This document shows positions 4,254-29,163 of a stretch of DNA of 33,477 bases, piece after piece. The stretch spans positions 1 through 33,477 of the forward strand of contig JAMPGO010000012.1 in assembly GCA_023663905.1 (NCBI GenBank), given 5' to 3'. Under the pieces are notes generated by a model. It was given only the letters and a program-made list of their open reading frames with translations, was not told the origin of the DNA and did no database searches. The position numbers and the translations under genes are program-made. Positions within the stretch are counted from its first letter, which is position 1; every line of letters begins with the position of its first letter. Source of the stretch: Ruminococcus flavefaciens. GTDB taxonomy: Bacteria; Bacillota; Clostridia; Oscillospirales; Ruminococcaceae.

Positions 4254-5525
4254 ATGGATTCTGTTCTTATAAAAAATATCCGTGCAGTTGATGTCGATTC
4301 TGACTTTACGGCGGATATACTTATAAAAGACGGTAAAATCGCAGAGGTTGCCGATAATATTCAGCATACCGCCGACAAAGTCATTGACGGCTCGGGGCTG
4401 GTGATTATGCCGTCGCTGTTTGATATGCACGTCCATTTCCGTGACCCGGGTCTTACTTATAAAGAGGATATAATTTCGGGCTGTTCATCGGCTCTTGCAG
4501 GCGGAGTAACAGGTGTTCTTGCAATGCCCAACACAAAACCGCCCTGCGATAATCCCGAGACTATCCGCTATATCATCGACAAGGCTGAGGGTACAGGTGT
4601 TGACGTTTACCCTGTCGGCTGTATCACTAACGGAATGAGCGGAGACGGCTTGTGCGATTTCGATGAGCTGAAAAAGGCAGGCTGTATCTGCATTTCAGAT
4701 GACGGCAGACCTGTTGAGAATGCCGAAATGATGAGAAAAGCACTTGAGCTTTCCACAAAAAACGGACTTCTTGTCGCCTCTCACTGCGAGGATTTGAGCA
4801 TTATAGACGGCGGAATTATGAACAGGGGAGAGACTTCCGAAAAGCTGGGCGTAAAGGGTATGGACAGAGCTTCGGAGGATTATATAACCGCCCGTGAGAT
4901 GATTCTTGCCAAATCGGTTGATTCACGAATCCACATATGCCACGTCTCAACAGAGGGAAGTACGGCTATGATTCGCTTTGCGAAGTCCAGAGGAGTAAAA
5001 GTCACCTGCGAGACTGCTCCGCACTATTTTATGCTGACTGACAAGCTTCTCGAAAAGCGTGACGCAGATTACAGAATGAATCCTCCGCTCAGAACTCAGG
5101 CGGATGTTGAGGCTGTAATCGAGGGAATCAAGGACGGCACGATTGATTGCATAATCACCGACCACGCACCTCACGCACCCGAAGAAAAAGCCGATTTCGA
5201 GAAAGCTCCGAACGGTGTTGTAGGGCTTGAAACCTCGCTCGCTGTAACTCTTACGGCGCTGTATCATACAGGAGAAATCAGCCTGAATAAAGTCGTTGAG
5301 CTTATGTGCGTGAATCCGAGAAAGATTCTCGGGCTTGAAATTCCGCAGATAAAAGAGGGAAGCACTGCCGATTTGGTTATCGCCGATATTGACAGGAAGT
5401 GGACTGTTGAGCCTGAGAAGCTCCGTTCAAAGTCGCATAATACGGTTTTCAAGGGTATGACCCTGACAGGCAAGCCCGTTATGACTATCTCAAAGGGCAT
5501 TATCAGATATAACGAAATAAATTAA
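4254..5525 (+). CDS. pyrC: Dihydroorotase
   Basis: It catalyses reversible cyclisation of N-carbamoyl-aspartate to dihydroorotate, the third step of UMP synthesis. The 423-residue length fits type I dihydroorotases. Metal-site motifs are visible: DMHVHFRDPG near residues 57-66, SHCED near 176-180, ICHVST near 231-236, and ITDHAPHA near 301-308. The MNPPLR segment binds substrate in homologues. The start at 4254 is supported by AAGGAGATGAATTT directly upstream; the frame extends back to 4098, but that stretch contains the promoter and the attenuator. It is the first gene of pyrC-pyrF-carA-carB. Genes for pyrB, pyrD, pyrE and pyrK must lie elsewhere. Confidence 0.95.
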   Translation: MDSVLIKNIRAVDVDSDFTADILIKDGKIAEVADNIQHTADKVIDGSGLVIMPSLFDMHVHFRDPGLTYKEDIISGCSSALAGGVTGVLAMPNTKPPCDNPETIRYIIDKAEGTGVDVYPVGCITNGMSGDGLCDFDELKKAGCICISDDGRPVENAEMMRKALELSTKNGLLVASHCEDLSIIDGGIMNRGETSEKLGVKGMDRASEDYITAREMILAKSVDSRIHICHVSTEGSTAMIRFAKSRGVKVTCETAPHYFMLTDKLLEKRDADYRMNPPLRTQADVEAVIEGIKDGTIDCIITDHAPHAPEEKADFEKAPNGVVGLETSLAVTLTALYHTGEISLNKVVELMCVNPRKILGLEIPQIKEGSTADLVIADIDRKWTVEPEKLRSKSHNTVFKGMTLTGKPVMTISKGIIRYNEIN

Positions 5526-5543
5526 ACAAACGGAGGAATTTTT

Positions 5544-6470
5544 ATGTCATTTGACAGACTTATTGATAAGATTATTGAACTCAAGAACCCGACTGTTGTC
5601 GGACTTGACCCGAAGCTCGAATACGTTCCCGCATACATCCAGCGCCGTTACTTTGAAAAGGACGGTATGACCCTGAAATCCGCCGCAAAAGCTATCTATG
5701 ATTTCAATCAGGCTATTATTGACGAGATTCACGACATCGTTCCCGCAATCAAACCGCAGGCGGCTTACTATGAGATGTACGGTCACTATGGTATCAGAAC
5801 GCTCGAAAAGACTATCAGATATGCCAAGCTTAACGGTATGTTCGTTATCACCGACGGCAAGCGCAATGACATCGGCGCAACTATGGAAGCCTATACCAAC
5901 GCTCATCTCGGCACGACTGCAATCGGCGAAAATTCGGCGGAAGCTTTCGGCGCTGACGCTCTTACAGTCAACGGCTATCTCGGTACGGACGGCATAGAGC
6001 CACTGCTTAAAGTCTGCCGTGAGCAGGACAAGGGAATATATGTTCTCGTCAAGACTTCCAATAAGTCAAGCGGAGAGCTTCAGGATTTGAAGCTTGAGGA
6101 CGGTACTCCGATTTATGCTAAAATGGGCGACCTCTGCGAGATGTGGGGCGCTGATACAATAGGAAAATACGGCTATTCCGCAGTCGGCGCAGTTGTCGGA
6201 GCAACGTATCCCGAAATGCTCACGGAACTCCGCCAGAGACTTCCGCATACTATGTTCCTCGTACCGGGCTACGGTGCGCAGGGTGGCGGAGCAGAAGGCT
6301 TGAAGGGCGGATTTGACGAGAACGGTCTCGGCGCAATAGTAAACTCCAGCCGTGCGGTTATGTGCGCCTATAAGAAAGAGGGCTGTGACGAGCGTGATTT
6401 CGCAAAGGCTGCACGTCGTGAGGTTATCCGTATGAGAGACGACATCACCCAGTATATTAATCTTAAATAA
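5544..6470 (+). CDS. pyrF: Orotidine 5'-phosphate decarboxylase (long, type 2)
   Basis: It removes CO2 from OMP to give UMP, the last step of the pathway. The protein is 308 residues, matching the longer type 2 family rather than the roughly 240-residue E. coli form. The catalytic Lys-Asp region is DGKRNDIGATMEAY (about residues 103-116), and an early GLDPKLEYVP segment and KPQAAYYE also fit. Near the C-terminus LVPGYGAQGGG is the phosphate-binding loop. The ATG has a GGAGG 8 nt upstream and lies 18 nt after pyrC, in the same operon. Confidence 0.95.
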   Translation: MSFDRLIDKIIELKNPTVVGLDPKLEYVPAYIQRRYFEKDGMTLKSAAKAIYDFNQAIIDEIHDIVPAIKPQAAYYEMYGHYGIRTLEKTIRYAKLNGMFVITDGKRNDIGATMEAYTNAHLGTTAIGENSAEAFGADALTVNGYLGTDGIEPLLKVCREQDKGIYVLVKTSNKSSGELQDLKLEDGTPIYAKMGDLCEMWGADTIGKYGYSAVGAVVGATYPEMLTELRQRLPHTMFLVPGYGAQGGGAEGLKGGFDENGLGAIVNSSRAVMCAYKKEGCDERDFAKAARREVIRMRDDITQYINLK

Positions 6471-14822: not shown

Positions 14823-17120
14823 TTATTCAATTTCGGGAAGTGACTTGATGAGCTTAGCCTTGAGCTTCTGAATTGCGAGCGCATCCATACCCGTAACACC
14901 GTCTCCGGGATTATAGCAGTCTGCGTTAATCTTACCCTGTTCGGAGAGGGCATATTTGTCCTTGTTGCCAAGGGACTGGATTATTGCGGCTGCGTCGGCG
15001 ACATCAACAATACCGTCCTCATTAGCGTCGCCGAGAAGGGTAACGTCGCCCTCGGATGTCGTTGGCTGGCTGTTGTCGTATTCGTAAACAACCTGAATGC
15101 TTGTATAGCTGACGGAGATAATGTCCTCAACTTCCAGCTCCTGCTTTTCGGAAGCTTCCCACCATTTCTGCAGCTCAATCTTGCCGTCGGCGATTATTGC
15201 GGAAACGTCCTCTTCATCCTTGCTGAGAGTGCCGTCAAACAGAATCGTAGCCTTTGAACCGCTTCCCAGACCGAGAGTGTAGCTCTTGGAAGTCCAGAAG
15301 TCCTCGCCGTTATCGTCAACAGCATTTATGCAGACCGCACATCCTGCCGTTCCCCAGCCTGAACCTGCGCTTGATGTAACATCGGCGGTGAGGATAACTT
15401 TCTTGAGGTGTTCGGGGTCTTCAATCGGGACTTCGACAAAGCCGTTCTTGTTAACCAGCGACATAGGGTCGTCAAAAGTAACGGTTTTCTCCTCTTTCTG
15501 AATTTCGTCCGCCTTCTGTTCGCCGTCAAAAGCATTTTCGTCATCGGAAACCACTACCATTGCAACGGAAAATGCAGGAAGCGTAACGTTGACTTCATTG
15601 TCTGCAACATCCACAACATCGAGCAGGCGGATGTCCGAAGAATCGCCGTAAATCGCATAGATACCAGCGGATTTATATTCCGTATCAGTGCCTTTGAGAA
15701 CGATAGAGGCATTCTCTTCGGCATTCATATCCTTGTTTGTTACCATAACGGTAACTTCTGAGCTGTCGTCCGAATCTATTGAAGCATATGCGCTCGATTT
15801 TGAAACGTCCTCGGTTGAAGTTGAAAGAAGCGTATCGCCGAAGCTTCCGCCCTTGCCGTTGTAGTTTGTGTAAAGATTGATAGCGGAAAGAGTATATCCG
15901 CTTCCGCCCCAAAGTGAAGCGAAGTAGACGTTGTGGTCGGCATAACAGCCGAGAGCCTCAGCCTGTGCGATTGCACCCGACGGGTCGTCATCTCCGCCGA
16001 AATGGTACTCGGTAATGCCGAGCTTAGTACCCGGATAGTATTTGTCAATGGAAGCCTGAATCGTCGGAAGAATCGGAACGTTAGCCTGACACCACTGCCC
16101 AATCCAGCTGTTTTCCTCGAATCCCTTTTCATAGAGAGTGCGGACGGACTGAACCCTGTCTTCTGCGCTTACTCTTGCGGATTCTGAATAGTAGTGAATA
16201 TCAAGCACATCAAGCAGGCGGACACCTTCCTCGTCGCTTGCCTTTTTCATTTGGTCGAGATAGCAGTCAAGATACCAGTGGTAGTTGTTTTCGTCCCTTA
16301 TTGTCTCCCATTCGTCGGAATCATCATCATCTGCGAGGTGGTCGTAGGCGGTGTAGCCGTAAAGCGCAGGACCGAAAATTTCAGCGTTCGGGTCGAGCTT
16401 TTTTACGGCAGAAGCCATACTGATTGATTTCTCGGCTATCTCGGCAATAGTAACAGGCTCGGGGTGAATACGTGGATGAGTATGCGCCCAGAGTGCAGGC
16501 TCGTTGTCAAGGCTGTATGCCTGAATGCCTGTTGCGGAAGTTGAATCGCCGAGCTTATTGATAATATAATTAACGTACTCGTCCATATATACCTTGCCGT
16601 CGGTAAGGTCGGGTTCGTCGTCGAACGGTGCGTTTTTGGTGATTACAACCTCGTTCCATCGGTCTGACGGAGCGGATTCCTCTTCGGTAACAATGCCGTC
16701 CTTGTCTGCGGAAACATATCCTGCAAGCTGAAGAGTAGCGAGCTTGTAATCAACGTTGTACTTCGTCGCCTCATCGGAAAACTTCTGAACGCAGTCGGCA
16801 GGTCTGTCGGAGCTGGAAAGATTGTTGTCGGAGCTGTGCTTCCAGTCCGAACCCGCATTTGAAGCGTTATTCTCCCAGTTATAAGCGGTCATACGGTTTC
16901 CGCCCTGACGTAATGCGGTGACGGTCATATTCTTCATATCGTCCTGATGACCGTAGTGGTTGATTCCGTAGATATAGGGGCTGATTTCCTTTGTTTCGCC
17001 CGAAAAATCGACTGTCACGTTCATATCGTACGAGGTTTCGACTGCGGTTGCGGTAAATGTAATCGGAACTGCTGTAACGGTAAGCACCATTGCAGTTAGC
17101 AGGGATTTGAATCTTTTCAT
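14823..17120 (-). CDS. Secreted GH44-type endoglucanase/xyloglucanase with dockerin
   Basis: The 765-residue protein starts with a signal peptide (about 1-27). The GH44 catalytic region spans about 30-530. SLDNEPALW holds the likely acid/base Glu207 and GITEYHFGG the likely nucleophile Glu371; the TIM barrel ends near 420 and a beta-sandwich follows. Residues about 545-682 form a beta-rich module with several Trp and Tyr that looks like a carbohydrate-binding module; CBM76, described with R. flavefaciens GH44 enzymes, is a candidate I cannot confirm. Residues 693-765 are a type I dockerin: repeat 1 has the Ca ligands of DANEDGIVD (698-706), repeat 2 starts NADCYNPGDG (732-741) with an insertion. 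GH44 enzymes cleave beta-1,4 glucans such as xyloglucan. The start has AGGAGG 9 nt upstream. The gene stands alone under its own promoter. Confidence 0.93.
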   Translation of the reverse strand: MKRFKSLLTAMVLTVTAVPITFTATAVETSYDMNVTVDFSGETKEISPYIYGINHYGHQDDMKNMTVTALRQGGNRMTAYNWENNASNAGSDWKHSSDNNLSSSDRPADCVQKFSDEATKYNVDYKLATLQLAGYVSADKDGIVTEEESAPSDRWNEVVITKNAPFDDEPDLTDGKVYMDEYVNYIINKLGDSTSATGIQAYSLDNEPALWAHTHPRIHPEPVTIAEIAEKSISMASAVKKLDPNAEIFGPALYGYTAYDHLADDDDSDEWETIRDENNYHWYLDCYLDQMKKASDEEGVRLLDVLDIHYYSESARVSAEDRVQSVRTLYEKGFEENSWIGQWCQANVPILPTIQASIDKYYPGTKLGITEYHFGGDDDPSGAIAQAEALGCYADHNVYFASLWGGSGYTLSAINLYTNYNGKGGSFGDTLLSTSTEDVSKSSAYASIDSDDSSEVTVMVTNKDMNAEENASIVLKGTDTEYKSAGIYAIYGDSSDIRLLDVVDVADNEVNVTLPAFSVAMVVVSDDENAFDGEQKADEIQKEEKTVTFDDPMSLVNKNGFVEVPIEDPEHLKKVILTADVTSSAGSGWGTAGCAVCINAVDDNGEDFWTSKSYTLGLGSGSKATILFDGTLSKDEEDVSAIIADGKIELQKWWEASEKQELEVEDIISVSYTSIQVVYEYDNSQPTTSEGDVTLLGDANEDGIVDVADAAAIIQSLGNKDKYALSEQGKINADCYNPGDGVTGMDALAIQKLKAKLIKSLPEIE

Positions 17121-17432: not shown

Positions 17433-19649
17433 TTAATGATATATCGAGAGCAGTTCAGTGTCCCAGCCGTATGTGTCAGGAACAGATTCTCCCGAACCCG
17501 TATGCGATGATTTTGAAATACCAGCCTCACTGAGAAGCTCCGCATTTTCAGGTGTATTTCTGAGGTAGAAGTTTCTGCCATCAACATTTACAACGGCAAG
17601 AGGCATTTCGCCGATAATTATAGGGGTGCAGTTGTTGAGAATTTCGATGACGTTCTTTTTGCCGATTCCAACAGTCGCCGAGTTGTCAATATAAGTCATT
17701 GCAGGATAAATTCTTGTGATTTTATCGGCAAAAGCTGCGGGGTACTCATCATCGTTGTTGTAGTAATAATAGTTGCTTGTACCGTTTTCGCCGTTGATAT
17801 ATGTCTGCACATACGTCAGGATTTCGGGATTCACATCAAATTCAACAAACAATCCTCTGTCCGAGAAAGTCGATGTGCTGATTTCGGGTACGTTAGTATC
17901 AAGCAGGCTGATAGTATTCTCGAATGATTCAAGCACCCATACCTGGTCGATAAAGCAGTAAACATCGCCGTTGAGAAGCTCTTCTTCAGTCATAGCCTGC
18001 ATATCCTTGATATAGGCATTGCGGATTTCATCGAGCTGTTTTTCCGAGACTTTTTTGTCGTCGGCTTCCTTAAGCATAAGCTTATCCATAACGGAGATAC
18101 GGTAATTATTCTTGTTACTGCCGACCTCATAGACCTCATAGCGACCGATACTTGTTGCCTGATAATAAGCATATTCGTCCGACATCACGATAGCTTTCAC
18201 GAGACCGTCAGCCATTCCCGAGTTTATACGGTATCTTCTGCTGACTGTTGAGCCTGAAAGCTTCGTGTATTCAAATTCAATCAGGTAATCATCGGTCTTG
18301 CCGTAATCTTCATATGATTCGGGAACGGTGTTATAGCTGTAATCTTCGGGATTGTAGTGCCTGTCAACTATCTCCTTGTTGAGCGCAATGGCTTCCTTGA
18401 TAACGTCCTTGTCCTTGAAATCAATATCTTCCATATAATTTCCTGCAAGATTGCCGAGGTTTATTGAAACCGAACTTACGTTTATTGCGGACGGCACACG
18501 CTTTGAAGCACCGAATCCGTCAGTAACATCGCACAGCCAGCATACACCGAAAACCGATACGACAGCGACCGTAAAGCTTATGGGTGCAGTCCAGAATTTC
18601 TTGAATCCACGTCTTGTGATGATTTCCATAATGAACCATATTATCGCACACAAAACAATACCTGCGACTATAAATGCATCGGACATTATAAACATCGACA
18701 GCACGCAGAACGTACCCATAGTCATAAGGATATAGAAAAACGACCTGTAAACATAGGGCTTTGAAACGTCCTCTGCTTTTCTGAAACGCTGGAGCAGGTA
18801 AGCTCCGCCGAGATAAAGCGCCGTCACAAGAAGCGTAATTATCATCCATTTCGCATACATTGATGATGTTCCGACCTCGCCGTACAAGTCTATATACATC
18901 ACGAAGAATGCAAACGCTCCGACGGGACTTGTGGTGGTGAAAATGCTTTTCTGAAAGATAGCGTCTCCGACCATTCCGAAAGTGGATGATTCAGTTACCG
19001 CAAACCACAGACAGCCTATTGTTGCGGGAATCATAATGACGAACGCAAGCACGCTGAAATGCGATTCAAAGGTATTTCCGCAGAATGTCAGGGCGAATAT
19101 TGATATTGTGTAATACTCTATCATAGCGGCGATGACGATGAAGACAAGCGACAGTATGAACGGCATTACTTTCCACAATTCCGACATATCCACGAAAATC
19201 GAGCCGACCCCGAGTATTAACAGGCTGAGTGCGACCGATACAAGCGGTATGCCGATGTAAATCGTGAAGCCCGAGAGATAATCGGCGAAAAATCGCTGAG
19301 TACCGCTCAATGGCAGTGAGTAGTTCATATCGGTTATGGTTTTCTTGTAAAGATACGAATACTGCGACAGGGCAATCAGCGAGCCTATAAGCACGCTTGC
19401 CGCAATAGTACAGCAGGCTATCATTGCAAACGGAATACAGCCTGCCATAACAATATCCTGCGTGATTCTCTCTGCGTCGGTCAGTTCCTTGCCTTCAAAG
19501 TAAAAGCCGATTATCAAAATAATGGCGATAACAGGAAGCCCGAGAATCTCAAGAACGCTGTTGATGATGAGTAATTTGTTACTGCTTCTGAGGTTATTGA
19601 GATAGCGTGTGCAGAAGAAATTCTTTTTACTTGATGTCACTGCTGTCAT
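17433..19649 (-). CDS. ABC transporter permease with large C-terminal domain
   Basis: The 738-residue membrane protein is encoded directly after an ABC ATPase. The N-terminal half holds two sets of hydrophobic helices (about 30-300 and 310-380) with the pattern of ABC-2 type permeases. A loop with YSYLYKKTITDMNYSLPLSGTQ content resembles the coupling region of YtrC/YtrD-like proteins. After a helix near 380 comes a soluble, probably extracellular domain of about 340 residues with no motif I recognise. The start at 19649 is preferred because GGAGG lies 9 nt upstream; it overlaps the ATPase gene by 23 nt, so the two are coupled. Substrate unknown; YtrABC-type systems respond to cell-wall-active antibiotics in Bacillus. 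Confidence 0.85.
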   Translation of the reverse strand: MTAVTSSKKNFFCTRYLNNLRSSNKLLIINSVLEILGLPVIAIILIIGFYFEGKELTDAERITQDIVMAGCIPFAMIACCTIAASVLIGSLIALSQYSYLYKKTITDMNYSLPLSGTQRFFADYLSGFTIYIGIPLVSVALSLLILGVGSIFVDMSELWKVMPFILSLVFIVIAAMIEYYTISIFALTFCGNTFESHFSVLAFVIMIPATIGCLWFAVTESSTFGMVGDAIFQKSIFTTTSPVGAFAFFVMYIDLYGEVGTSSMYAKWMIITLLVTALYLGGAYLLQRFRKAEDVSKPYVYRSFFYILMTMGTFCVLSMFIMSDAFIVAGIVLCAIIWFIMEIITRRGFKKFWTAPISFTVAVVSVFGVCWLCDVTDGFGASKRVPSAINVSSVSINLGNLAGNYMEDIDFKDKDVIKEAIALNKEIVDRHYNPEDYSYNTVPESYEDYGKTDDYLIEFEYTKLSGSTVSRRYRINSGMADGLVKAIVMSDEYAYYQATSIGRYEVYEVGSNKNNYRISVMDKLMLKEADDKKVSEKQLDEIRNAYIKDMQAMTEEELLNGDVYCFIDQVWVLESFENTISLLDTNVPEISTSTFSDRGLFVEFDVNPEILTYVQTYINGENGTSNYYYYNNDDEYPAAFADKITRIYPAMTYIDNSATVGIGKKNVIEILNNCTPIIIGEMPLAVVNVDGRNFYLRNTPENAELLSEAGISKSSHTGSGESVPDTYGWDTELLSIYH

Positions 19650-20550
19650 AACCAAGCACCTCCAGTTCATAGATAAATATTTCTTCGAGCGAAAGCGGAA
19701 TCAGCTCCAGAAGTATGGGATTTTTCGGCGCAAAGAATTTTTCAAGCTCCTGTACTTCGCCCTTTGCGATGATGTAGTAGATACTCTGTGTTCTCTCGAA
19801 GTGCAGAATATCAAGACCCTCCTCCGCAAGCTGTTCACGGGTGTATTCAGCAGGCGAACCGTCCGCATTTTTCGGGAAAACAACCTGAACTTTATGCACA
19901 CTGCTCATCACGCTGTCGATTTCACGGGAGAAAATAATCCTGCCGTTATGGAGAAGCGCTGCCGTATCGCATACCTCGTTGATTTCCTTGAGGTTGTGGG
20001 ACGAAATAACCGTTGTGAGCTGTCTGTCGAGCATTGCGTCAACCAGCATTTTCTTGACGATGATACGCATAGTCGGGTCGAGACCGTCAAAAGCTTCGTC
20101 AAGGAGCAGGTAATCTGTTCGGCACGCAAGCCCGATGATAACAATCGCCTGACGTTTCATACCCTTTGAGAAGGTGTTGATTTTCTTGTTGAGCGGTAAA
20201 TTCACACGCTGGCGGAGTTCCTCAAATATCTCTTCGGAAAAATTACTGTAATAGCTCTTGTAGTAATTTTTGAGCGCCCTGAGGGTGTAGCTTCCGAACT
20301 GGACGGTCTCGTCGTTGATGAAAAAGACCTTTTCCTTTGCGGAAGTATTGTCGTAGACAGGTTCGCCGTCAATCAGAACCTCGCCCGATTCCTGCTTGTA
20401 GATTCCCGACAAAAGACGTAAAATCGTCGATTTTCCTGCGCCGTTCGAGCCGAGAAGTCCGAAAGCCGTGCCTTTCTCGATTTGCAGGTCAACTCCGTCA
20501 AGTGCGGTGTAGGTGTCAAATTTCTTGACAGTGTTTTTCAATTCAATCAT
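19627..20550 (-). CDS. ABC transporter ATP-binding protein (YtrB-like)
   Basis: The 307-residue cytoplasmic ATPase has Walker A GSNGAGKST at 34-42, signature FSKGMKRQ (in place of LSGGQ, as in YtrB-like subunits), Walker B LLLDEAFDGLD and the switch histidine in ISSHNL. The last 90 residues are an extra domain of the kind seen in this subfamily. It starts 2 nt after the GntR gene with AAGGAG before the ATG, and its 3' end overlaps the permease gene. The three genes form one operon. Confidence 0.93.
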   Translation of the reverse strand: MIELKNTVKKFDTYTALDGVDLQIEKGTAFGLLGSNGAGKSTILRLLSGIYKQESGEVLIDGEPVYDNTSAKEKVFFINDETVQFGSYTLRALKNYYKSYYSNFSEEIFEELRQRVNLPLNKKINTFSKGMKRQAIVIIGLACRTDYLLLDEAFDGLDPTMRIIVKKMLVDAMLDRQLTTVISSHNLKEINEVCDTAALLHNGRIIFSREIDSVMSSVHKVQVVFPKNADGSPAEYTREQLAEEGLDILHFERTQSIYYIIAKGEVQELEKFFAPKNPILLELIPLSLEEIFIYELEVLGYDSSDIK

Positions 20551-25087: not shown

Positions 25088-25116
25088 TTGACGTTGGGCT
25101 TGAAATATTATATAAT
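25088..25116 (+). promoter_or_regulatory. Sigma-A promoter of the rpe operon
   Basis: TTGACG (25088-25093), a 17-bp spacer and TATAAT (25111-25116). It is divergent from the rpsO promoter and is the only clear promoter I find for the plus-strand genes that follow. Confidence 0.82.
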
Positions 25117-25151: not shown

Positions 25152-25799
25152 TTGACTAATCTTGTTTCAGCATCGATTCTCAGTGCGGATTTGCTCAATC
25201 TGGAATCGGAAATCAGAAAGCTTGAAGAAAACAGCGTTGACTGGATTCACTTTGATGTTATGGACGGCGTTTTTGTGCCGAACATCAGCTACGGAATACC
25301 TGTTCTTGCGCAGATTCGCAGAAAAACGGAGATGTTCCTTGACGTACATCTTATGATTACAAATCCGCTCAGGTACGTCACGGAGTTTGAAAAAGCGGGT
25401 GCGGATATGATTACTTTCCACATCGAGAGCGAGAGCGATACTTCGGAAACGCTTCGGGCATTACAGCAGACCCGTTGCCGTACAGGAATCGCCATAAAAC
25501 CCGGTACTCCTGCGGAAGCTGTTTTTCCATATATCAGCCACGCAGATATGATTCTCGTTATGACTGTTGAACCGGGCTTCGGCGGTCAGTCATTTATGGA
25601 TATGAGCGAAAAAATCCGCAGAATCCGTGAATACGCAGACCTGAACGGCTTCGGGAATCTTATGATACAGGTTGACGGCGGAATTGACGACAGAACCGCT
25701 CCAGTTGTAAAATCGGCAGGCGCAGACGTTCTTGTTTCGGGAAGCTATCTCTTCAAGGCTCAGGATATGGGCAGTGACGTCGGAAAGCTGAAGGAGTAA
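25152..25799 (+). CDS. rpe: Ribulose-phosphate 3-epimerase
   Basis: It interconverts ribulose-5-P and xylulose-5-P in the pentose phosphate pathway. The 215-residue TIM-barrel protein has ASILSAD at the N-terminus, HFDVMDG (33-39), DVHLMI with a metal His at 66, VEPGFGGQ and VDGGI. The only start that fits the family N-terminus is the TTG at 25152, 11 nt after AAAGGA; the ATG at 25141 meets a stop after four codons. The rnfD-like gene begins one base after its stop. Confidence 0.95.
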   Translation: MTNLVSASILSADLLNLESEIRKLEENSVDWIHFDVMDGVFVPNISYGIPVLAQIRRKTEMFLDVHLMITNPLRYVTEFEKAGADMITFHIESESDTSETLRALQQTRCRTGIAIKPGTPAEAVFPYISHADMILVMTVEPGFGGQSFMDMSEKIRRIREYADLNGFGNLMIQVDGGIDDRTAPVVKSAGADVLVSGSYLFKAQDMGSDVGKLKE

Positions 25800-25800
25800 T

Positions 25801-26745
25801 ATGCAGAAAAAAGTAAAATCAGAACGCTTTATATGGCTTGATGTAATGCTCACCCTCATCACGCTTGAGATAATGCAGTTCTTCTACTACGGCATACGCT
25901 CCGTTGCGCTGGTCGGTGTATGCATAGGTGTATCGCTTGTTGCTGAGATTGTTTCCGTCAGGCTTATGAAAAGGCACTTCACGGCAGACGACCTCACCTG
26001 CATTTCCGACGCACTTATAATATCGCTTATGATGCCTGCTGTGATGAATTTCAGGATAGCTGGGATAGCCTGCGTGTTTGCGGTTGTTGTGGCGAAAAAC
26101 GTTTTCGGCGGAAGAAAAAATATGATATTCTCTCCGCCTGCGGTTGCTTATGTATTTATGCTCACTTCGTGGCGAGGTCAGCTTCTTATGTACACAGAAC
26201 CGCACGTTCATACAGGAGTTTTTGAAAAAGCAGGAAATCTTGTAAGCTCCGCAAGCCATACCTTTAATATCTCAGGCAAAATGAATTTCACGGACTTTGA
26301 GATTCTTATGGGCAATGCCACCGGCTCGCTGAGCATACTTCTGCTTGCCGTTTCCGCAGTTATTCTTCTCCTGCGACGTGATATATCGGCAGGTGCATTT
26401 ATCGGGACAATTTCGGGTACTGTGCTTCTTGCGTGCCTTGTGCCGATGTGCAGTGACGTTTACGACTCCGTGAAATATACGCTCTCAACAAATATGGTTC
26501 TCTTTTCGGCAATATATATAATCTCCGACAAAAGAACCGCTCCGAAGCGGAATTATTACGCATTTTTCTACGGATTCTTTATTGCGGTGCTGTCGTATAT
26601 TCTTGTACTGACAACTACAAAGGAAAATATGATTGTCATAGTATCGCTGTTGTTTACTCCTGTCGCTCTCGGCTTCAGAAATCTCGAGAAGCACATAGAC
26701 AGCCTCAGAACGGAGGAAAAAAAGGAGGAAACAGCTGTTGGCTAA
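25801..26745 (+). CDS. RnfD/NqrB-type membrane subunit lacking the flavin site
   Basis: The 314-residue polytopic protein belongs to the NqrB/RnfD family. The family landmarks KNVFGG...IFSPPAVAYVF (99-119) and MGNATGSL (170-177) are present, as is the number of helices. In RnfD the segment just before the second landmark carries an SGAT-type motif whose Thr binds FMN covalently. Here that segment (about 137-165) reads SSASHTFNISGKMNFTDF and no such motif is visible. It starts one base after rpe with AAGGAG upstream and overlaps the next gene by 8 bp. No RnfC, RnfG or RnfB gene is next to it. Function unknown; an Rnf-derived transporter core is one possibility. Confidence 0.8.
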   Translation: MQKKVKSERFIWLDVMLTLITLEIMQFFYYGIRSVALVGVCIGVSLVAEIVSVRLMKRHFTADDLTCISDALIISLMMPAVMNFRIAGIACVFAVVVAKNVFGGRKNMIFSPPAVAYVFMLTSWRGQLLMYTEPHVHTGVFEKAGNLVSSASHTFNISGKMNFTDFEILMGNATGSLSILLLAVSAVILLLRRDISAGAFIGTISGTVLLACLVPMCSDVYDSVKYTLSTNMVLFSAIYIISDKRTAPKRNYYAFFYGFFIAVLSYILVLTTTKENMIVIVSLLFTPVALGFRNLEKHIDSLRTEEKKEETAVG

Positions 26746-27364
26746 GAAAAATTCTGTTTTTGACGGACTTCTCGGCGATAACACAGTCCTGTCGTCGCTT
26801 ATGGTAATATCGCCCGTCATAGTCTGCGGTGATACGCTAAGGAACGCTATAGCGGTAATCTACGCATTTTCGGCGATTACTTTCCTGTCGGTGCTGGCAG
26901 GTTCTTTTGTGCCGAAAAAACTGCCGTATGCGCTGAAAATAATAACCTACACGCTCATTTCCTCGTTGGTATATCTTCCCGTAAAGCTCGCTTCACAGCA
27001 GTTTTTTCCCGAAGTGACGGAACGCATAGGAATATATTTTATGCTCCTTGCCGTAAATTCGCTTATCATAGTCCAGACAGAGGCTAAATTCTACCGTATG
27101 AAGCGTGGAAGGATGATAGTATCGCTTATTTTCTATATTCTCGGCTTTGACGCTGTTATGGTGGCTGTCTCGTTCGTCCGTGAGCTTATTTCGCACGGCA
27201 CGATATACGACAGGGTTGTTGATATAGATACGCTCGTAAGCGGTTTCGGTATGCCCTTCGGAGGATTCATATTCCTCGGGCTTTTCTGCGGAATATACAG
27301 AAAAATACGTTCCGCTCTGAAACGTGAGAATGCAGGAGGTGACGGAAATGTTTCTGATAACTGA
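26738..27364 (+). CDS. RnfE/NqrD-type membrane subunit with cluster cysteines replaced
   Basis: The 208-residue protein with six hydrophobic segments aligns by eye with NqrD/RnfE. NTVLSSLMVISP matches the NPxxxQxLGxC region, FMLLAVNSLIIVQTEA the NCxxxGRAEA region, and FVRELISHGT the FxRELxGSG region. The two cysteines that would ligate the intramembrane Fe-S cluster are Ser25 and Ser108; a Cys at 30 is not at the usual place. The start is TTG at 26738, with GGAGG 9 nt upstream, inside the 3' end of the D gene. Its own 3' end overlaps the A gene by 17 bp. Confidence 0.8.
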   Translation: MAKKNSVFDGLLGDNTVLSSLMVISPVIVCGDTLRNAIAVIYAFSAITFLSVLAGSFVPKKLPYALKIITYTLISSLVYLPVKLASQQFFPEVTERIGIYFMLLAVNSLIIVQTEAKFYRMKRGRMIVSLIFYILGFDAVMVAVSFVRELISHGTIYDRVVDIDTLVSGFGMPFGGFIFLGLFCGIYRKIRSALKRENAGGDGNVSDN

Positions 27365-27917
27365 ATTTATTGTCCTGCTCACCTCAAATCTTATCCTCAC
27401 TCAGGCACTCGGAACGAGTACACTCTTCATAGCTTCGGGAAGCAGAAAAAATCTTCTGTGGACTGCCGTTACAATCACGGTATTCACTACGGCAGGCTCG
27501 GCGGCGGCATATTTCATAAGCAATATACTTCCCGAAAGCGCTGGCGATTTGACCCTGTTCTTCTACTCGCTTGCCGTCGGCATACTGTATGTACTGCTTC
27601 TTACCGTGCTTTATTTCGTCAGCAGAAAGACGTTCAGAAATACCAGAAAATATGTTCACCTTTCTGCTTTCAACTGTGCGGTTATGGGTACTTTATTTAC
27701 TGTGACGGAAAGAGCTGAGAATCCGCAGTTCAACAACATAGGCAGTTTTGTGCTTGCAGGAGCGGAAACAGGACTGGGATTTATTCTTGCGGCGCTGATT
27801 CTTACATCGGCTTACCGCAGACTTAATTCGGCGGACGTTCCATCCGCTTTCAGAGGATTCCCTGCAATGCTGGTTTATATCGGGATAATATCAATGGCAG
27901 TTTATGCACTGACATAA
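27348..27917 (+). CDS. RnfA/NqrE-type membrane subunit with one cluster cysteine lost
   Basis: The 189-residue six-helix protein matches NqrE/RnfA well: SNLILTQALGTSTLF for the ENxxLxxFLGxCTFL region, AFNCAVMG (108-115) for VNCAxxG, then GLGFILAA and ADVPSAFRGFP near the end. Cys110 is kept, but the first cluster cysteine is Ser24. The ATG at 27348 follows AGGAGGTGACGGAA. It completes a D-E-A trio without the peripheral redox subunits. The next gene begins 22 bp later in the same direction. Confidence 0.82.
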   Translation: MFLITEFIVLLTSNLILTQALGTSTLFIASGSRKNLLWTAVTITVFTTAGSAAAYFISNILPESAGDLTLFFYSLAVGILYVLLLTVLYFVSRKTFRNTRKYVHLSAFNCAVMGTLFTVTERAENPQFNNIGSFVLAGAETGLGFILAALILTSAYRRLNSADVPSAFRGFPAMLVYIGIISMAVYALT

Positions 27918-27939: not shown

Positions 27940-29163
27940 ATGAAACATAAAGACAAGGGACGGAAAATTTACAGAACAAAAGAAAAAAATTATTACGGAA
28001 AAAGTCCGTTTGAAAAATTTATGTCGGGACTTCTCACCGTGCTTCTTATCGGCGGAATAGGTTTTCTCGGATACAGCGCCGCCGAACCTCTGCTTAAATT
28101 CACGAAGCACCAGGGCGATGAGCCTGAGGAATCAGTTCCCATATCAACAACAGCCGACGAATCCGAGTCCACAACGCAGGAAACGGCTGATACTACCGCT
28201 GAAACGTCGGCGGTAACAACTGAAACAGTTACTACGGAAGCACCCACAGAACCGCCTGTTACTATGGAAGCTTACAGGGCTTTTGCACTTAGCGCAGGCG
28301 ATTTGGCAAGCGACCAGTCGCTGAAAAACGCACTTGACGCAATCCCGAAAAACGAAGGAATAGAGTATGTGGAAGTGCCGTTAAAGACTTCGGACGGTAT
28401 GATTTACTACGTCAGCACCGTTGCAACGCAGGATGAGTACAAGGATTCCCAGAATCTCAATCTTGTCAAGATTTCCGAGGCTGTCAGGAACAGCGGTTAC
28501 AAGCCAGCTGGAATAATCAGCACGTTCAGCGATAATATATTGCCGAATATCGACAAGGAAACAGGGTATATCACTTCCGACGGCTCGCTGTGGTACGACA
28601 GTGCGCTCAAGCCCTGGACTGACCCTTTTTCGCAGAAAACCGTCAGCTATCTCGCTGATATTACCGACGAGATTTCGGGTACGGGCTTCGAGCGCATAAT
28701 ATGCACGGATTTCGTTTTCCCTGAATTTACAGACAGGGAACTTGATATTCTCGATGAAAGGCTTGGCAGGAGCGACAGGTGTATGGCGCTTACTTCAACG
28801 GCGAATCTTCTCTATGATACGTCGGTTTCAAACGGCTCATCTATGTTTATCGAGGTCTCGGCAGCGGATATTCTCAAAGGCAAAGCCGATGTGTTACAGC
28901 CTATGCTTCTTTCGGTCAACACGGTCGTACTCAATATCAACATTGACGAGCTGGGCGACGGTGTTTCTGACGGTCGCAACTACTATGAATTTAAAGGCAC
29001 TCCTGCGGAAAAGGCTGAAAAATGTCTGGGATTCGTTACCGACAGCCTTGCCGATTTCAACGTCGCCGTCAGGGTCTCGGGAAGTACGCTTACGGTTCAG
29101 GAACTTATTGCAGTCAAGGAAAAAATTGCCGGAATGGGATATAATTCGTTCGTTCTCGGCTGA
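27940..29163 (+). CDS. Membrane-anchored protein with glycoside-hydrolase-like (DUF4015-type) domain
   Basis: The 407-residue protein has a basic cytoplasmic start, one membrane helix (about 29-47), an extracellular Thr/Ser/Glu-rich linker (about 60-107) and a domain of about 300 residues. That domain resembles the putative glycoside hydrolase family DUF4015: AGIISTFSD, SLWYDSALKPWTDPFS, then GFERIICTDFVFPEF in place of the usual GFDEIQFDYVRFP. The aspartate and the F-P end of that strand are kept. A role on cell-surface glycans is possible; no activity can be claimed. GGAGAG precedes the ATG. Confidence 0.7.
   Translation: MKHKDKGRKIYRTKEKNYYGKSPFEKFMSGLLTVLLIGGIGFLGYSAAEPLLKFTKHQGDEPEESVPISTTADESESTTQETADTTAETSAVTTETVTTEAPTEPPVTMEAYRAFALSAGDLASDQSLKNALDAIPKNEGIEYVEVPLKTSDGMIYYVSTVATQDEYKDSQNLNLVKISEAVRNSGYKPAGIISTFSDNILPNIDKETGYITSDGSLWYDSALKPWTDPFSQKTVSYLADITDEISGTGFERIICTDFVFPEFTDRELDILDERLGRSDRCMALTSTANLLYDTSVSNGSSMFIEVSAADILKGKADVLQPMLLSVNTVVLNINIDELGDGVSDGRNYYEFKGTPAEKAEKCLGFVTDSLADFNVAVRVSGSTLTVQELIAVKEKIAGMGYNSFVLG

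Follow-up and report, generated by a model that had tools for sequence, protein, structure and literature searches.

The 33,477-nucleotide stretch of Ruminococcus flavefaciens DNA analysed here (contig JAMPGO010000012.1 of assembly GCA_023663905.1; hereafter the window) carries three overlapping genes for homologs of RnfD, RnfE and RnfA, and raises the question of what such a trio does when most of its cofactor ligands are replaced and no rnfB, rnfC or rnfG stands beside it. In Rnf, B is the electron-input subunit, G the electron shuttle and C the NAD (nicotinamide adenine dinucleotide) subunit. Our analysis indicates that the trio is very probably a second, redox-silent offshoot of the Rnf pump, and that it is under purifying selection and not decaying.

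Cofactor ligands of the D-E-A trio

All three genes lie on the forward strand, and the open reading frames (ORFs), their coordinates and their assignment to RnfD, RnfE and RnfA in the initial annotation were confirmed. The first (25801..26745) encodes a 314-amino-acid RnfD/NqrB-like membrane protein with PF03116 as its only domain (2.2e-35; 9eri_D, 1.5e-11), the second (26738..27364, TTG start) a 208-amino-acid RnfE/NqrD-like membrane protein (PF02508, 6.2e-24), and the third (27348..27917) an RnfA/NqrE-like membrane protein of 189 amino acids (PF02508, 2.9e-18). The ORF of the third opens at a GTG at 27324, while the ATG at 27348, which encodes Met9 of that frame, is the likelier start because Met9 is among the near-invariant residues of the genus alignment; the numbering of Ser24 and Cys110 below follows from this start. 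All three proteins exceeded their Pfam cut-offs and matched solved Rnf structures (9eri, 7zc6). Their scores against the NCBIfam rnfD, rnfE and rnfA models were far under the curated cut-offs, and the NqrB, NqrD and NqrE models scored them lower than the rnf/rsx models did. The order in the window is rpe-D-E-A-DUF4015-hprK-murB-rapZ-whiA, and none of these neighbours is rnfB, rnfC or rnfG, in agreement with what had been noted earlier.

The four ligands of the intramembrane [2Fe-2S] cluster of Acetobacterium woodii Rnf are Cys25 and Cys113 of RnfA and Cys25 and Cys108 of RnfE (PMC11889175). HMMER alignment placed Ser25 (codon 26810..26812) and Ser108 (codon 27059..27061) of our RnfE-like protein on Cys25 and Cys108 of A. 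woodii RnfE (9eri_E), and alignment to 9eri_A placed Ser24 (codon 27417..27419) and Cys110 (codon 27675..27677) of the RnfA-like protein on Cys25 and Cys113. The proposal that serine occupies three of the four cysteine positions, with Cys110 of the RnfA-like protein the sole retained ligand, thus agrees with the alignment.

These substitutions are not limited to one genome. We compared a genus set of 26 loci (the window and 25 congeners) with a named set consisting of the best 80 of 287 relatives from one scan of GTDB species genomes; 76 of the 80 are titled Ruminococcus, including R. flavefaciens FD-1, 007c and ATCC 19208, and the two sets overlap (e.g. contig 7 of G008 and L127). Within the genus set, Ser108 of RnfE and Ser24 and Cys110 of RnfA were each observed in 26/26 loci and Ser25 of RnfE in 25/26, the remaining protein being truncated at that site. 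All four residues were found in 80/80 loci of the named set. Of a further 58 loci, one is a second copy in a congener (L051 in G020) and 57 come from other genera; they are not a random draw because they were found by similarity to the cofactor-less RnfE. Among them Cys108 of RnfE was kept in 0/58 and Cys25 in 3/58, and for RnfA the cysteine at position 24 was kept in 0/56 and that at position 110 in 29/56. Counted over the four positions, exactly one cysteine remained in 26/26 genus loci, while among the 56 other loci in which E and A are both present 25 had none, 30 had one and 1 had two. The canonical comparison of 18 rows (16 distinct loci, with L036/L196 and L037/L195 each one locus taken twice) had four cysteines in 17 and two in one. 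Three loci (L035, L038, L094) were excluded from column counts as repeats of L052, L053 and L082.

A possible separate loss of the cluster was observed in L194 (G053:C9:67000-79000), a complete C-D-G-E-A-B locus on the minus strand (E frame 5795-6439, A frame 5212-5868) with Gly at the RnfE Cys108 position and the first RnfA cysteine displaced by one (GCGSFF). The same genome also holds a second Rnf whose cysteines are normal in the parts seen (L253).

The flavin mononucleotide (FMN) site of the RnfD-like protein is altered as well, the FMN-binding Thr being absent. The loop around this Thr is hard to align and its exact column is not certain; within that limit, the column was Thr in 18/18 canonical rows, Ser in 26/26 genus proteins, and Ser, Gly or Thr in 27, 23 and 4 of 57 other proteins. 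The motif used by the flavin transferase ApbE is D-x-x-[ST]-G-A-[ST], and ApbE can use Ser (PMC12052999). A strict match was found in 0/26 genus, 0/57 other and 4/18 canonical proteins, and this low canonical count makes the strict motif a weak yardstick. The short form [ST]GA[ST] occurred, anywhere in the protein, in 3/26 genus sequences. The earlier observation that no SGAT motif is visible stands, with the correction that a Ser-rich remnant (mostly LVxSAS) occupies that place in the genus.

A cysteine outside the canonical ligand positions, Cys30 of RnfE (codon 26825..26827), was conserved in 25/26 genus proteins (the other being truncated there) and in 80/80 of the named set. The genus RnfA-like proteins also share a His that is near-invariant and lies six positions N-terminal to the kept Cys (alignment columns 112 and 118), a possible new functional site. 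It has to be considered whether the trio is still redox-active with a different centre, for example a metal or flavin held by genus-specific residues such as Cys30 of RnfE, Cys110 and the His of RnfA, and the Ser remnant of RnfD. The conservation of these residues speaks for this, as do the 4Fe-4S motifs retained in the C proteins of the C-D-E-A loci described below. Outside the genus, however, position 30 was Ala in 26/36 rows and Cys110 was far from universal, and the locus contains no gene for a donor or acceptor subunit. We regard a replacement centre as improbable. We found neither NqrF nor NqrA among the genes at the window locus, and neither a PF00175 domain joined to D nor an FMN-bind partner gene.

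Conservation, selection and descent

An ortholog of the trio was found in 26/36 genus genomes searched, that of the window included, with identities of 54-100%. In the family sample, an RnfE match of at least 115 bits was present in 110/198 genomes (hand count of the match listing). Twenty loci chosen to span the 115-190 bit range of these matches, all counted among the 58 above, had no cysteine at either RnfE position (0/20); a C gene was present in 10/20, a DUF4015 gene in 14/20 and rpe in 16/20, and no rnfG or rnfB was found in the stretches of these 20 loci.

We measured the ratio of nonsynonymous to synonymous substitution rates (dN/dS) for 31 close pairs and obtained pairwise medians of 0.070 for D, 0.090 for E and 0.087 for A, with comparison medians of 0.103 for rpe (30 pairs), 0.071 for murB (28 pairs) and 0.008 for hprK (29 pairs). 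RnfE and RnfA were open frames of at least 100 codons in 80/80 named loci. A functionless, decaying relic could draw on the observation that loss does occur, 10/36 genus genomes lacking the trio (six of these are less than 85% complete), but the low dN/dS and the open frames rule it out as a serious candidate, and we consider it exceedingly improbable.

A complete canonical rnfCDGEAB, for which a check had been proposed, was found elsewhere in the same genome (82% complete). It is spread over two contigs: C8 carries C and the beginning of D, and C9 the remainder of D together with G, E, A and B. In this canonical Rnf the four cysteines of the cluster are all present, and D has a TGATP motif. 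Its presence allows that the trio is an alternative or regulatory core that assembles with the canonical B, C and G and tunes or blocks the canonical complex, and four further genomes (G530, G501, G138, G377) contain both kinds of PF02508 pair, as judged by score. Against this, five genomes that are 93-99% complete (G222, G540, G578, G550, G489) hold two PF02508 proteins each, all at or below 112.2 bits, whereas canonical PF02508 proteins in the same search scored at least 193.9 bits. Residues were inspected in four of the five, namely G222, G540, G578 and, for RnfE only, G489 (L193, L224, L225 and L226). Nor was rnfG or rnfB found beside the cofactor-less loci in the stretches searched, one search covering just ~1.5 kb on either side of E. 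The five genomes with low-scoring RnfA and RnfE only also disfavour an accessory subunit of canonical Rnf, and we judge a regulatory core to be a distinctly unlikely account.

The initial annotation had described a conserved but redox-inactive Rnf core, with a channel, a transporter or work with another partner as its candidate functions. The description of the core is supported, as far as sequence goes, by the conservation in genus and family, the purifying selection and the missing cluster ligand set, and is further backed by the canonical Rnf in the same genome and by the five genomes without canonical-scoring RnfA and RnfE. The predicted redox inactivity itself is read from the missing ligands.

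Gene content across relatives suggested a ladder in one genomic place, with rpe on its upstream side and, in most cases, a gene for a DUF4015 protein anchored in the membrane on its downstream side. In one locus (L103, family f4), rpe precedes an entire canonical C-D-G-E-A-B whose C subunit has the Gly-rich NAD motif, and a DUF4015 gene comes last; L103 was the only one of 15 annotated canonical loci with rpe before rnfC. A C-D-E-A form without G or B, and lacking the cofactor ligands, was observed in L052, L094, L096, L098, L104 and L193, and L053 showed C-D-E up to the contig end. Six C proteins were aligned (L052, L053, L094, L096, L098, L104); they have lost the GxGG(A)xFP motif and retain both 4Fe-4S motifs. 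The D-E-A form was found in Ruminococcus and many others, and the order in the 80 named loci was always part of rpe-D-E-A-DUF4015-hprK-murB-rapZ-whiA, with pnp/rpsO before. Three genomes of 0.7-0.9 Mb (G465, G529, G477; L231, L232, L233) carry a single divergent RnfE-like protein and an RnfD-like protein on another contig, with no second PF02508 match at E 0.001. The series CDGEAB, CDEA, DEA suggests that the trio descended, in place, from an rnf operon linked to rpe. A tree of D+E+A from 41 loci, however, grouped all 16 canonical loci (E. coli Rsx included) apart from 25 cofactor-less loci with an ultrafast bootstrap of 100; the split may be truly deep or may be an effect of long branches.

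In some relatives a MecA-domain gene, read from the opposite strand, separates rpe from the operon (e.g. L051, 11032-11637; L052, 4461-5036). Pfam supported this assignment in L051 and L052 but not for the ORF in the corresponding position of L103, and the gene was not seen in the named Ruminococcus loci.

Candidate function of the trio

In A. woodii, growth was absent in the RnfE mutants R67A, L103G and V106G, recovered in part in N107A and impaired in E115Q and E115K, and E115A grew like the wild type (PMC11889175). Lys67 and Glu115 of the RnfE-like protein in the window (26738..27364) stand at the positions of the Na+ gate pair. Position 67 was Lys or Arg in 26/26 genus proteins and Arg in 53/58 others, L103 was kept in 26/26 and 42/58, V106 in 26/26 and 25/58, N107 in 26/26 and 43/58, and E115 in 24/26 and 40/58. 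As a baseline, the 47 RnfE columns conserved among canonical proteins, to which V106 does not belong, had a mean retention of 0.36 in the genus and 0.43 in the others. Judged by these alignments, the putative Na+-path residues of RnfE are mostly kept above average, and those of RnfA are not kept.

We propose that D, E and A would still form the membrane core seen in Rnf and Nqr structures, and that this core, having no electron path, may transport a cation (Na+ or H+), either by itself or with a small solute. It would do so by switching between inward and outward states, a motion that in Rnf depends on reduction of the cluster, which is lost here. The redox-driven pump would in this way have turned into a passive or secondary ion-coupled transporter or channel, with an alternating-access or channel function. 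The fold of RnfD/NqrB resembles that of urea and ammonium transporters (PMC9588780, PMC10643135), so that, by analogy, D may be the conducting part. Such a transport mechanism, a cation moving alone or with a small solute, is a tentative proposal in which our confidence is less than even. For the explanation as a whole, a non-redox, self-standing Rnf descendant that is most likely an ion-coupled transporter or channel, our confidence falls a little short of even.

The fold of RnfD would also suit a transporter of a small solute (e.g. a flavin, vitamin or metabolite) that uses the old riboflavin/FMN space of D and is not ion-coupled. The riboflavin contacts in A. woodii RnfD are N123 and D249. 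The second is retained in the window protein (25801..26745) as Asp243, found in 26/26 genus proteins and as Asp or Glu in 53/57 others, which favours such a pocket. The Asn, however, is replaced by Ser (Ser111 in the window) in 26/26 genus proteins and 76/79 of the named set (it is Asn in 39/57 others), no gene from rpe to whiA in the window matched a transporter or vitamin family in Pfam, and the ion-gate residues of RnfE are retained above average. An uncoupled solute transporter therefore seems to us rather unlikely.

Several observations weigh against the ion-coupled, non-redox explanation and its proposed descent. The genus still has a Ser close to the FMN site, and Ser is a residue that ApbE can use; the two 4Fe-4S motifs in the C proteins of the C-D-E-A form may mean that some redox role outlived the cluster. 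V106 is kept in under half of the other RnfE proteins, and E115 is replaced in 18/58 of them, E115A being the A. woodii mutant with wild-type-like growth. The RnfA equivalents of E88, Q85, T110 and T111 are lost in 26/26 genus proteins, with E88 and T111 also lost in 56/56 other loci and T110 in 47/56. The RnfE match in G540, one of the five low-scoring-only genomes, runs across one TGA. Finally, attachment of the cofactor-less branch within the rpe- or DUF4015-linked canonical loci was looked for in the 41-locus tree and was not found.

The DUF4015 neighbour and relation to known systems

The gene directly downstream of the trio (27940..29163, forward strand) encodes a DUF4015 protein, putatively glycosyl hydrolase-like (PF13200, 1.6e-14), with one N-terminal hydrophobic segment (26-49). 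Its one strong solved relative, 4s1a, is of uncharacterized function. D-E-A might work with this envelope protein, ion flow driving a change in, or supplying substrate to, an extracytoplasmic glycoside-acting protein. The gene follows A in 79/80 named loci, a similar association was seen in the sampled other-genus loci, and it follows canonical rnfB in 5/15 annotated canonical loci (L100, L101, L103, L192, L195); the YkyA domain is moreover known from fusions with DUF4015 domains and with polysaccharide deacetylase domains, according to one supplementary legend (PMC12700454). The two are nevertheless separable. The congener G026 (L246, G026:C17, 7389-9295) has rpe-DUF4015-hprK with no trace of D, E or A at the locus, and G428 has rpe, a MecA-like gene and DUF4015 without D-E-A, while G530 has D-E-A with neither a DUF4015 gene at the locus nor a PF13200 match in the genome, and no PF13200 match was found in the G222 and G489 genomes. 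These separate losses disfavour an obligatory DUF4015 partner. No DUF4015 gene was found near the canonical rnf of five genomes that also hold a cofactor-less locus (L186-L190) in the 12 kb read, and the literature found held no mention of DUF4015 next to rnfB, the one DUF4015 text (PMC12700454) being without Rnf in the part available. A working partnership is unlikely in our view. The DUF4015 protein probably acts in the cell envelope and is a neighbour inherited from the ancestral operon, without being required as a subunit.

The usual upstream neighbour is rpe (ribulose-phosphate 3-epimerase; 25152..25799, forward strand), preceded on the same strand by a promoter-like site (TTGACG-17-TATAAT, 25088..25116) that, as a consensus match, is a possible transcript start. 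Elsewhere in the window, a 745-amino-acid ORF without a Pfam match (17436-19670, reverse strand) adjoins a GH44 protein (14826-17120) whose dockerin match is weak.

The trio resembles the Rnf complexes of A. woodii and C. tetanomorphum and the E. coli Rsx in its homologous D, E and A, in the D-E-A order of the retained genes, and in shared conserved residues, e.g. Arg148-Glu149 of RnfE, the Asn just before the kept Cys of RnfA, and Pro248 of RnfD. It differs in lacking B, C and G at the locus, the AE1 [2Fe-2S] ligand set and the FMN-Thr, and in its long separating branch. The closest precedent is the origin of the Na+-translocating NADH:quinone oxidoreductase (NQR), in which an rnf operon was duplicated, rnfB was lost and RnfC lost its NAD and FMN sites, yet NQR stayed redox-driven (PMC4014512). 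Unlike the trio, which has no donor gene at the locus and no cluster ligand set, NQR recruited NqrF and kept the intramembrane cluster and FMN. Two-subunit Nqr/Rnf-like complexes also have an RnfD-like subunit without the FMN-Thr (PMC8238504, PMC10979944), but these complexes, of two subunits only, also carry a domain that binds NAD and a flavoprotein resembling RnfG, and they are considered to transfer electrons. The downstream neighbour belongs to the same family as other DUF4015 proteins (PF13200; 4s1a). We found no published account of a cofactor-less Rnf core in the literature searched, a search partly swamped by RING-finger papers.

The cofactor-less loci may represent a non-redox third branch of the Rnf/Nqr superfamily, in which the electron path was shed stepwise (CDGEAB, CDEA, DEA, then an E with an unlinked D and without detectable A). 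The 0.7-0.9 Mb genomes would be the last step, and the product would now be a secondary ion transporter or channel throughout a large family of gut and rumen Clostridia; this wider view is possible and, to us, rather doubtful.

The Na+ route, through RnfA/E or RnfD, and the contribution of flavin and cluster are answered differently across Rnf and Nqr papers. A natural core that lost the cofactor ligands and is still under selection could serve directly as a test, because ion conduction by it would mean that the path is independent of the redox centres. Annotation by family name would label these genes RnfD, RnfE and RnfA and credit them with electron transport where none may exist. Ruminococcus and many relatives of the rumen and gut seem to keep a second, stripped Rnf core that apparently does not carry electrons and, if this is true, rumen bacteria such as R. 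flavefaciens FD-1 would have converted a redox pump to a membrane machine that is non-redox, perhaps a plain transporter.

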